This document shows, in pieces, positions 1 through 57,752 of a stretch of DNA of 58,336 bases. A model generated the notes under the pieces. That model made no database searches, was not told the DNA's origin, and saw only the letters and a program-made list of their open reading frames with translations. Within the stretch, counting starts at the first letter, position 1. The number at the start of each line of letters is the position of its first letter. The stretch comes from Syntrophomonas sp. (lineage in GTDB: Bacteria; Bacillota; Syntrophomonadia; Syntrophomonadales; Syntrophomonadaceae). The translations under genes and the position numbers were made by a program. The stretch lies in the NCBI RefSeq assembly GCF_028707975.1, contig NZ_JAQVZX010000007.1, positions 1 to 58,336 of the forward strand. The letters are read 5' to 3'.

Positions 1-141
1 GTCGCTTTTAATGTTGCACCCTGCGGGCACTTCTGATGCTCCCTTTGGTCGCTTTTAATGTTGCACCCTGCGGGCACTTCTGATGCTCCCTTTGGTCGCT
101 TTTAATGTTGCTGAGCGGTATATTTTATGCAAACGAATGCA
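1..141. repeat. Tandem repeat, period 47 bp (about 2.3+ copies, truncated by window start)
   Basis: GTCGCTTTTAATGTTGCACCCTGCGGGCACTTCTGATGCTCCCTTTG begins at 1, 48 and 95. It is the hairpin cassette also seen once inside the repeat copy at 810-1099. Confidence 0.9.
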
Positions 142-166
142 TATTAATAAGTTTTTGCACTAAAGG
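1..166 (-). repeat. Dispersed repeat family A, copy truncated by window start (left end plus tandem cassettes)
   Basis: GTTGCTGAGCGGTATATTTTATGCAAACGAATGCATATTAATAAGTTTTTGCACT matches the left end of the 810-1099 and 6186-6367 copies (reverse orientation). Confidence 0.8.
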
Positions 167-809: not shown

Positions 810-1099
810 GATTCCCCTGCAAAAAACCCTTTTTGTTGCATAAGGGTTGCATGAATATAAAAAACGCTGGTGAAGGTGAAAGCGGGCGTTCGAAGACCGC
901 CCTTACAATGCCTTGCAGTCGCTATTAAGGTTGTTGCGCCTGATTCGGAACGACACGGGGGTCGTTCCCTAAATACCCTGCGATCGCTATAATGGTTGCA
1001 CCCTGCGGGCACTTCTGGTGCTCCCTTCGGTCGCTATTAAGGTTGCTTAGCGGTATAAATATGCACACTAATGCATATTTATTACTTTTTGCAGTGACA
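810..1099 (-). repeat. Dispersed repeat family A, long three-cassette copy
   Basis: Starts GATTCCCCTGCAAAAAACCCTTTTTGTTGCATAAGGGTTGCAT and ends TATTTATTACTTTTTGCAGTGACA. Contains hairpin cassettes (GGGCG..CGCCC; GGAACGAC..GTCGTTCC; GCAC..GTGC) separated by the TCGCTATTAAGGTTG joiner. Flanked by TTACATTT / TTAAATTT. Confidence 0.85.
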
Positions 1100-1170
1100 T
1101 TAAATTTAAAACTAGAGAGCAATTGCTGGGGTACTCCGGTCGAGCTCAGCTTGACTATTGTGATAAATTA

Positions 1171-1259
1171 TAACGAGGTGAAATATGTCCCCCGCTTCTT
1201 TAAGCGGTCGGGTTCCTATTAACAAAGCAGGCGGCGGGTTTTAATCCCCCACCTCGTTG
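1171..1259 (+). ncRNA. Structured RNA or DNA-hairpin element upstream of dapB (class unknown)
   Basis: Outer stem AACGAGGTG (1172-1180) / CACCTCGTT (1250-1258). Inner hairpin CCGCTT-CTTT-AAGCGG (1192-1207). Confidence 0.4.
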
Positions 1260-1340
1260 CAGCGGTGTGTTGAAATTGCTCCGCAGTTTCTTCAGATGCT
1301 TAAATATAGGATTTTTGGATAGCATGCGGGAGGTTTTATT

Positions 1341-6128: not shown

Positions 6129-6185
6129 TTAAAGAAATTGCTGGACAAGAATCAGGCGGTACTCCTTAATTTAAGTATTTATTGA

Positions 6186-6367
6186 TGTCACTGCAAAAAG
6201 TAATAAATATGCCTTAGTGTGCATAAATATACTGCTCAGCAACCTTAAAAGCGACCGCAAAGCATTGTAAGGGCGGTCTTCGACCGCCCGCCTTTACCTT
6301 CGCCAACGCTCGTTTTGTATATTCACGCAACCCTTATGCAACAAAAAGGGTTTTTTGCAGTGGAGTC
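6186..6367 (+). repeat. Dispersed repeat family A, one-cassette copy
   Basis: TGTCACTGCAAAAAGTAATAAATATGC ... GGGCGGTCTTCGACCGCCC ... CAACCCTTATGCAACAAAAAGGGTTTTTTGCAGTGGAGTC. Flanked by TTTATTGA (6178-6185 and 6368-6375). Confidence 0.9.
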
Positions 6368-10468: not shown

Positions 10469-10550
10469 TACTCCACTAAAAAACCCCTTTTGTTGAATAA
10501 GAGTTGTATAAATATAACAAACGGTATTGGCGAAGCATGGATGCAACACC
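10469..10550 (-). repeat. Family A right-end fragment (one-ended)
   Basis: TACTCCACTAAAAAACCCCTTTTGTTGAATAAGAGTTGTATAAATATAACAAACGGTATTGGCGAAGCATGGATGCAACACC. Its reverse complement aligns with 57648-57731. Confidence 0.75.
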
Positions 10551-13944: not shown

Positions 13945-14049
13945 GGCTTTTGCATAATTCTTCCGCGAAAATGGTTTAAATATGCAGTGTGTGTAAAAGA
14001 TAACAACACTATATATTGTAGTTTTTAAAAATATCCTCACTGATATTTT

Positions 14050-14104
14050 GATTCTCCTGCAAAAACCCCTTTTTGTTGCATAAGGGTTGCATAAATATAC
14101 AAAG
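14050..14104 (-). repeat. Family A right-end fragment
   Basis: GATTCTCCTGCAAAAACCCCTTTTTGTTGCATAAGGGTTGCATAAATATACAAAG. Confidence 0.8.
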
Positions 14105-18892: not shown

Positions 18893-18940
18893 GAAAGAGA
18901 CGATGCTTTTGTTTTAAAGATTGTTCTTGGGGACTAACGA

Positions 18941-18980
18941 TTCCAGGCCAGGTTCTAGACCTGGCTGTTTTGTTTTTATC
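18941..18980 (+). terminator. Intrinsic terminator
   Basis: GGCCAGGTTCTAGACCTGGCTGTTTTGTTTTT. Confidence 0.75.
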
Positions 18981-19094
18981 AATTTTATTAGCCCAGCGGA
19001 TATTTTTTGCACCGCTATGGAATTTGTAATAGAATAAAAAGGGAAAATTGAAATTGAGCTTGCTTAAGTGAGTATATTTAAGTAACCAAAATAG

Positions 19095-19150
19095 GACTCT
19101 GCTGCAAAAACCCTTTTCTAGGCAAGCTTATAACTTTTTGCAATGACATC
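19095..19150 (-). repeat. Family A minimal two-ended copy (about 56 bp)
   Basis: GACTCTGCTGCAAAAACCCTTTTCTAGGCAAGCTTATAACTTTTTGCAATGACATCAAG. Both ends present, no cassettes. Confidence 0.75.
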
Positions 19151-19175
19151 AAGATCATATAAGGAGATGCTGGGA

Positions 19176-29438: not shown

Positions 29439-29444
29439 AGAAAT

Positions 29445-29511
29445 GTTGCTGAGCGGTATATGGTTCCACTGCAAAAAATCCTTTTGATGCAGAAGGGTTG
29501 CATAAATATAA
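29445..29511 (-). repeat. Family A fragment (left-end piece joined to right-end piece)
   Basis: GTTGCTGAGCGGTATATGG + TTCCACTGCAAAAAATCCTTTTGATGCAGAAGGGTTGCATAAATATA. Confidence 0.7.
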
Positions 29512-30385: not shown

Positions 30386-30396
30386 TAAATTCTTGA

Positions 30397-30603
30397 TGTC
30401 ACTGCAAAAAGTAATAAATACATAATAGCGACCGCAGGGTGTGTAGGGAACGACCCCCGTGTCGTTCCGAATCAGGCGCAACAACTAGCGACCGCAAGGC
30501 ATTGTAGGGGCGGTCATCGCCCGCCCGCTTTCGCCTTCACCAACGCTCGTTTTGTATATTCATGCAACCCTTATGCAACAAAAAGGGTTTTTGCAGTGGA
30601 GTC
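30397..30603 (+). repeat. Dispersed repeat family A, two-cassette copy
   Basis: TGTCACTGCAAAAAGTAATAAATA...TAGCGACCGCAGGGTGTGTAGGGAACGACCCCCGTGTCGTTCC...CTAGCGACCGCAAGGCATTGTAGGGGCGGTCATCGCCCGCCC...CAACCCTTATGCAACAAAAAGGGTTTTTGCAGTGGAGTC. Confidence 0.9.
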
Positions 30604-46334: not shown

Positions 46335-46367
46335 TATTTTGCCTGGAATCCCGCGATGAAATATTGA

Positions 46368-46452
46368 TGTCACAGCAAAAAGTAATAAATACTATTTTGC
46401 TTCTATAATAATACAAGCTGTAGGTAACATAAAGAGTTTTTGCAGTGGAGAA
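46368..46452 (+). repeat. Family A two-ended copy with divergent core
   Basis: TGTCACAGCAAAAAGTAATAAATACTATTTTGC...AACATAAAGAGTTTTTGCAGTGGAG. Confidence 0.75.
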
Positions 46453-53390: not shown

Positions 53391-53423
53391 TGCTACTATA
53401 AGTTAAAATTAATAAGCAAGCTT

Positions 53424-53540
53424 TCTTCGGGGATGGGTGCAATTCCCTATCGACGGTAAAGCCCGTGAGCCTTATGGGGCAGGAATCGGTGAAACTCCGA
53501 TGCCGACAGTAAAAGTCTGGATGAGAGGAGAAGGTTGAAC
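53424..53540 (+). promoter_or_regulatory. FMN riboswitch (RFN element)
   Basis: TCTTCGGGGATGGGTGCAATTCCCTATCGACGGTAAAGCCCGTGAGCC...GAATCGGTGAAACTCCGATGCCGACAGTAAAAGTCTGGATGAGAGGAGAAGG is canonical RFN sequence, upstream of rib genes. Confidence 0.97.
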
Positions 53541-53610: not shown

Positions 53611-53673
53611 AAGTATTAATCCCCTATGCCCCTAACCTTAATAGTGACGCCCGAAGGGTGGAACACCAGGAGT

Positions 53674-53735
53674 ACCCGGCACTCAGTCAATATTTGCTCA
53701 AGTCTGTTATCAATCATTGTAGCTGAGTGCCGGGT
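53674..53735. other. 13-bp perfect inverted repeat between riboswitch terminator and ribD
   Basis: ACCCGGCACTCAG (53674-53686) / CTGAGTGCCGGGT (53723-53735). Confidence 0.75.
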
Positions 53736-57647: not shown

Positions 57648-57731
57648 GGTGTTGCGTCCATGCTTCGCCAACGCTCGCTTGTATTTTTATTCAACCCTGA
57701 TGCAAGAAAAACGGGCTTTTGCAGTGGAATC
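57648..57731 (+). repeat. Family A right-end fragment (one-ended)
   Basis: GGTGTTGCGTCCATGCTTCGCCAACGCTCGCTTGTATTTTTATTCAACCCTGATGCAAGAAAAACGGGCTTTTGCAGTGGAATC. Confidence 0.8.
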
Positions 57732-57752
57732 AAAAGCCTAACTTACCAGGTA

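Follow-up and report, generated by a model that had tools for sequence, protein, structure and literature searches.

Many short repeats of a Syntrophomonas genome are copies of one miniature inverted-repeat transposable element (MITE), a short non-autonomous DNA transposon, and it is well supported that this MITE is modular and that its interior units turn over. We consider it probable that the MITE is moved in trans by an IS1182-like transposase, and that its units turn over through the joiner sequences they carry and through ectopic gene conversion between copies. The window, by which we mean the whole 58,336-nucleotide stretch that was analyzed, is contig C175 of genome G000, a 2.36-Mb draft in 177 contigs that is 88% complete. 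We compared it with two sister genomes of the same genus, G001 (one contig of 2,936,195 bp, probably S. wolfei) and G002; the comparison covered the surroundings of repeats and a single syntenic block. In the literature searched, we found no paper on these Syntrophomonas repeats. The window contains the following copies and parts of copies, in which B and A denote the two ends and J1, J2 and J3 the joiner-led units that carry the modules m1, m2 and m3:

810 to 1101, minus strand: complete MITE of 292 bp, B-J1-J2-J3-A (m1, m2, m3), with its B end at 1101 and its A end at 810 (the 810 copy)
1045 to 1101, minus strand: B end of the 810 copy, a terminal inverted repeat with the AT-rich hairpin TATGCATTAGTGTGCATA; the same end occurs at about 150 genomic sites
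998 to 1044, minus strand: joiner and m1 of the 810 copy, a 47-bp unit that is also an independent dispersed repeat
933 to 997, minus strand: joiner (J2) and m2 of the 810 copy, with the hairpin GGAACGAC..GTCGTTCC
884 to 932, minus strand: joiner (J3) and m3 of the 810 copy, with the hairpin GGGCGGTC TTC GAACGCCC, in which one pair is broken here
810 to 865, minus strand: A end of the 810 copy, TATATTCATGCAACCCTTATGCAACAAAAAGGGTTTTTTGCAGGGGAATC
1 to 159, minus strand: MITE cut by the contig edge, with tandem 47-bp joiner+m1 units and then the B end
6184 to 6367, plus strand: MITE of 184 bp, B-J3-A, with m3 only and a TTTATT target duplication on both sides (the 6186 copy)
30395 to 30603, plus strand: MITE, B-J2-J3-A (m2, m3), with a shortened left end; absent in G001 (the 30397 copy)
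19095 to 19150, minus strand: minimal 56-bp MITE without interior modules
46366 to 46452, plus strand: 87-bp MITE without m1 to m3; absent in G001
14047 to 14103, minus strand: A-end remnant of a MITE
29458 to 29511, minus strand: A-end remnant of a MITE, adjoining a short B-end-like stretch at 29442
57679 to 57734, plus strand: A-end remnant of a MITE
10478 to 10523, minus strand: degenerate A-end remnant of a MITE

The copy at 19095 and the one at the window start share the MITE ends, and the proper description of the repeat is therefore a MITE with a variable interior. Its inverted ends are GATGTCACTGCAAAAAG and TTTTTGCAGTGGAGTC, and the terminal inverted repeats GATGTCACTGCAAAAA and TTTTTGCAGTGGAGTC are present in 77 complete elements. 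Genome-wide, we located the B end 150 times and the A end 121 times, against 1 and 0 sites, respectively, for reversed-pattern controls, and we estimate about 120–150 copies of the MITE in the window's genome. In 37 of the 77 distinct complete MITEs, the ends are immediately flanked by exact 6- or 7-bp direct repeats, with the target-duplication consensus A....T; the duplication flanking the 810 copy is imperfect (AAATTT/AAATGT). Elements range from 56 to 422 bp and contain no transposase gene. Both G001 and G002 have an exact empty site for the 6186 copy, with a single TTTATT. Neither sister genome has the 810 copy in the orthologous intergenic region, G001 likewise lacks the 30397 copy in the corresponding one, and there are more clean empty sites in sister species for MITEs of G000 and G002. 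Many MITE insertions are not common to the species compared. Given the transposon ends and target duplications, we rejected a CRISPR-like or plain tandem array.

A candidate for the mobilizing enzyme came from a survey of DDE transposase genes in G000, G001 and G002. G001 carries six identical copies of a 1,920-bp insertion sequence (IS) whose left end is identical to the MITE B end at 17 of 17 bases; its opposite end is TTTGGCAGTGACATC. Like the MITE, it makes target duplications of 6–7 bp (AATATT, AAGATT, AACAAC, ATTATT, ATTTCTT and ACATAT). Its 562-amino acid protein contains DDE_Tnp_1_6, DDE_Tnp_1 and DUF772 domains and matches IS1182 weakly. This putative partner thus resembles IS1182-family insertion sequences in its transposase domains and in a partial match to the IS1182 model, and differs from them in scoring under the family's curated cut-off (167 bits against NF033551, where the NCBIfam cut-off is 270). 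We found no intact copy of the IS in G000 or G002; its absence in G000 is weak evidence because that genome is an 88% complete draft. Judging from sequence, the transposase of G001 likely moves the MITE in trans; in the window's own genome the MITE may not be mobile at present.

Between the ends, we tabulated modules by local alignment in 81 elements of G000 and 57 of the two sister genomes. A preliminary description of this DNA had claimed that the repeat contains interchangeable palindromic cassettes, each introduced by a fixed joiner and gained or lost as a unit. As that description anticipated, there is a limited module alphabet in many combinations, including B-J2-A, B-J2-J3-A, B-J1-J2-J3-A, tandem J1 and m3 only; a second MITE lineage has an interior of modules X, Y and Jv. 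The compositions it gave for the window were right in outline: m1-m2-m3 at 810, m2-m3 at 30397, m3 at 6186, none at 19095, and tandem m1 at the window start, where we count 2.4 tandem copies of the 47-bp unit. Duplicated units comprise tandem J1 and, in G002, J2J2. Counts of compositions are inflated because subfamilies were copied: two near-identical size classes, of 65–66 bp (six to seven elements) and 180–181 bp (about a dozen), have been amplified. Free interchange of the cassettes, on the other hand, was not borne out, as the order 1-2-3 is kept in 48/48 elements that have at least two of m1–m3 across the three genomes.

The joiner is recurrent and less fixed than had been claimed. In the window it has six matches at up to three mismatches, where 0.02 are expected by chance, but the exact 18-mer does not occur there, all six matches carrying one to three mismatches. 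In the 30397 copy, the joiner between m2 and m3 is shortened (AACAACTAGCGACCGC) and the first joiner abuts the truncated left end. Joiner variants are position-specific, with m2 often preceded by GATCGCAGGG or GACCGCAGGG and m3 by GACTGCAAGGC. Two m1-m3 elements without m2 have hybrid joiners, in which a J2-type left part runs into m3; they show that m2 was lost at joiner homology, as recombination or slippage between joiners would predict.

Palindromy, claimed for every cassette, holds for two of them. Both m2 (DNA-fold z −2.7) and m3 (z −4.8) are hairpins, while the joiner+m1 unit is not a significant one (z −1.1, with 29 of 200 shuffles folding as well). Across copies, the m3 stem has 18 broken pairs and 0 compensated ones and is substituted as often as non-stem positions; its pairing is therefore not being kept. 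At the Rfam gathering score, the window gives only an FMN riboswitch elsewhere (53419–53536). We rejected a conserved structured RNA on this negative Rfam result and on the decay of the m3 stems. One stretch similar to m2 was seen outside the MITE, in genome G003 (L102).

To follow interiors at fixed sites, we identified orthologous insertions by matching both flanks. L001 and L108 are one insertion, with the m1 unit in L001 and without it in L108. L185 lacks J1 and Jv, which its G001 and G002 orthologues both carry. L176 and its G002 orthologue have private end variants, unique to this pair among the sequences retrieved, and differ in their interiors (GCAGT-X-Y versus J1-X-Jv); L070 and its G002 orthologue differ by the same GCAGT/J1 kind of exchange, and L185 is a further case of this type. 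At other loci there are near-identical interiors (97.5–100%). Because simple deletion cannot yield GCAGT from the J1 form and near-identical interiors lie elsewhere, the simplest reading is that whole module sets were replaced from another copy by ectopic gene conversion. We base this step on orthologues that keep the target duplication and private end variants and carry another interior. Whole-unit differences at orthologous loci (L001/L108; L070, L176 and L185 versus G002/G001) are what the preliminary description had led us to look for, and with the hybrid joiners they bear out its gain and loss by unit. Its exclusion of random decay fails at irregular truncations that lie off module boundaries, at L059 in G001 and at L386/L355. 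Five other comparisons show an unchanged composition: L005/L201, L059 and its G002 orthologue (identical), L081/L379, L356/L385 and L147/L204. Unit turnover is real at orthologous MITE sites and ordinary decay is real too; the two coexist. What stands of the earlier account is thus unit gain and loss and the compositions, and what falls is free interchange of order, a palindromic m1 unit and the absence of decay.

At some sites, different MITE variants lie on the same target duplication across species: the G001/G002 orthologue of window 18903–19162, L003/L407, L392/L202 and L359/L187. The first two of these pairs lie in opposite orientation, and simple conversion does not account for that. Shared target sites of this kind may reflect a strong preference for the target, successive replacements or an inversion of the element through its ends. 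Flanks on G000 contigs C129, C5, C15, C78 and C142 (those of L176, L070, L185, L059 and L081) are 92–99% identical to G002, while the window itself is about 85% identical to it. Recent exchange or a mixed draft assembly may explain these near-identical contigs; a mixed assembly would alter the genome to which an allele is assigned, not the comparison itself.

We propose that the transposase of the 1,920-bp IS1182-like IS, whose ends match those of the MITE, would move or copy the MITE in trans, as the shared ends and target duplications suggest, and that the interior would have been assembled from small repeat units, chiefly the 47-bp dispersed repeat joiner+m1. The joiner recurs as a direct repeat from one unit to the next, so that slippage or recombination between joiners could delete or duplicate units, a step to which the hybrid joiners point. 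Ectopic gene conversion could swap whole module sets at fixed chromosomal sites because the roughly 120–150 dispersed copies share long homology, and transposition would then amplify some compositions. The units most probably serve no shared function in the cell, and the m3 hairpin at least is not maintained.

The joiner forms the 5' half of the 47-bp repeat, and this repeat leads a life of its own. In a search of 61 genomes, joiner+m1 had matches in seven genera of the family, and genomes from outside the family had none. L304 and L314 each carry an exact 47-bp joiner+m1 insertion within a different repeat, of 138 bp, whose uninterrupted form is found at window 1167–1304. At L104/L301, a tRNA-like 3' flank is duplicated, one copy with joiner+m1 and the other without. 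In G003, joiner+m1 forms tandem arrays. Two targets were amenable to dissection, and in both of them GC stands on either side of the 47-bp insertion. Joiner+m1 has been inserted elsewhere on its own, apart from the MITE, and L104, L304 and L314 contradict the view that it occurs only inside, or is derived from, the MITE. It is conceivable, if unlikely, that the 47-bp unit is a free-standing precise inserter, moved by a non-RAYT enzyme and smaller than known MITEs, and that the MITE interior collects and trades such units, with preferred slots that would gain, lose and regain units in parallel at several loci.

Several further observations concern these repeats. The 138-bp repeat of window 1167–1304 (TAACGAGGTGAAATATGTCCCCCGC...CCTCGTTGCAGCGG...) is a second dispersed repeat, with dozens of copies per sister genome. 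It is absent at the orthologous site in the sister genomes, folds better than shuffled sequences (z −2.8) and has no Rfam match. A stand-alone joiner+m1-like unit lies at window 53634–53690, outside recognized MITEs and shortly downstream of the FMN riboswitch. In other genera (L106/L110/L300, L308, L317 and L111), the 47-bp unit lies time and again in one kind of repeat, GACACTGATAACACTGATT, and at almost identical positions within it, which hints at a target preference.

The precision of joiner+m1 insertion would also fit a second alternative, that m1, m2 and m3 are repetitive extragenic palindromes (REPs), each moved by its own REP-associated tyrosine transposase (RAYT), that landed in the MITE. 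In copies of m2 and m3, a perfect stem is immediately preceded by GTAG or GTAA, which recalls the tag of GTAG REPs (PMC3733652). The tag is mostly GTAG at m2, with TTAG in the 810 copy, and GTAA or GTAG at m3. Y1 transposase genes of RAYT size are also present, three in G000, six in G001 and four in G002. However, no m1, m2 or m3 motif lies around the RAYT-type genes of G000, G001, G002 or G003, and one RAYT-like gene of G003 has its own, different palindrome arrays. The m3 stems decay uncompensated and joiner+m1 lacks a significant hairpin, which also count against this origin, and we regard it as quite unlikely. We rejected linkage of m1–m3 to a RAYT or REPtron on the surroundings of the genus's RAYT genes, which are without these units. 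Separately, one weak m2-like match was seen in another genus (L219), and at L249 (G003:C5:125400-128200) a RAYT-like gene sits amid many copies of the palindrome GAAGCTTTAGCTTCC...GGAGGCTAAAGCCTCC, making this locus a good candidate REPtron.

Ordinary decay would have a long ancestral MITE shrink randomly, with amplified shrunken copies mimicking cassettes. The 65–66-bp and 180–181-bp classes are clearly amplified subfamilies, and irregular truncations are present, both as this account expects. Deletions at joiner homology with hybrid joiners, duplicated units, and orthologous sites with differing or exchanged units are not what it expects; as the sole explanation, decay is already contradicted, and we consider the account very unlikely. 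We give equally little weight to the modules being regulatory or mRNA-structuring parts under selection, an idea put forward for BOX and BrickBuilt. The window copies are intergenic, two of them at most 10 bp past a stop codon, the whole MITE folds somewhat better than shuffles (z −2.45), and composition is unchanged in the five orthologous MITEs noted above. Against selection stand the unmaintained m3 stem, the many species-private insertions and the differing compositions at one and the same site. Finally, a dedicated, integron-like system, with a site-specific recombinase that puts cassettes in and takes them out at the joiner, would suit orthologous sites that differ by whole units with conserved boundaries, but is barely credible given the fixed module order, joiners that belong to an independent 47-bp repeat and that diverge by position and form hybrids as homologous recombination predicts, an alternative slot content (GCAGT) that is not a simple excision product, and no recombinase gene implicated, albeit without a dedicated search.

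A modular MITE with unit turnover has its closest parallels in anatomy, with no claim of sequence relation, in the BOX elements of Streptococcus pneumoniae and the BOX-type elements of S. suis. These are composite MITEs with fixed end modules and variable interior modules, which in S. suis comprise seven subsequences in particular permutations; similarity of the BOX terminal inverted repeats to an IS (ISSpn2) has been proposed as the basis of mobilization, and BOX module number differs between strains at one site (PMC3049150). The Syntrophomonas MITE is alike in its fixed ends and variable number of interior modules, and in module number varying at orthologous insertions (L001/L108; L070, L176 and L185 versus G002/G001). 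It differs from BOX in that a 5' joiner is common to several kinds of interior unit, in that one unit, of 47 bp, is also an inserted dispersed repeat outside the MITE and in other genera, and in that orthologous sites show exchange of interior sets. BrickBuilt, a MITE of Porphyromonas gingivalis, has a leader and a tail around a variable tandem array of a 23-bp minisatellite (PMC4596501). It too is a MITE with a variable array between its ends, again with no sequence relation claimed, but it repeats a single unit where the Syntrophomonas MITE has several kinds in fixed order, and has 19 copies rather than about 120–150. With GTAG REPs and their RAYTs, the partial likeness lies in the GTAG or GTAA beside the 8+8-bp palindromes of m2 and m3 and in the presence of RAYT-type genes in Syntrophomonas. 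Unlike REPs, the Syntrophomonas units are linked to no RAYT gene of the genus, joiner+m1 has no clear hairpin, and the units stand in fixed order inside a MITE.

The small dispersed repeats (SDR) of cyanobacteria are very short units inserted in unrelated repeats, and we know of no mobilizer for them. By description, the 47-bp unit is alike, being also a very short insertion in unrelated repeats; it comes from a different phylum, and in addition occurs as tandem arrays and inside a MITE. These repeats are named in PMC3116915.

Set against these systems, the Syntrophomonas MITE is new in degree, in combining several joiner-sharing kinds of unit, one of them an inserted dispersed repeat, with exchange of module sets at orthologous sites. 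The three species together provide a natural series in which, at fixed sites, the inside of a bacterial mini-transposon is seen to change one piece at a time. The series makes testable how BOX-like modular repeats gain and lose modules, whether by slippage or by conversion between copies, and how units of less than 50 bp, too short to resemble transposons, spread through genomes.
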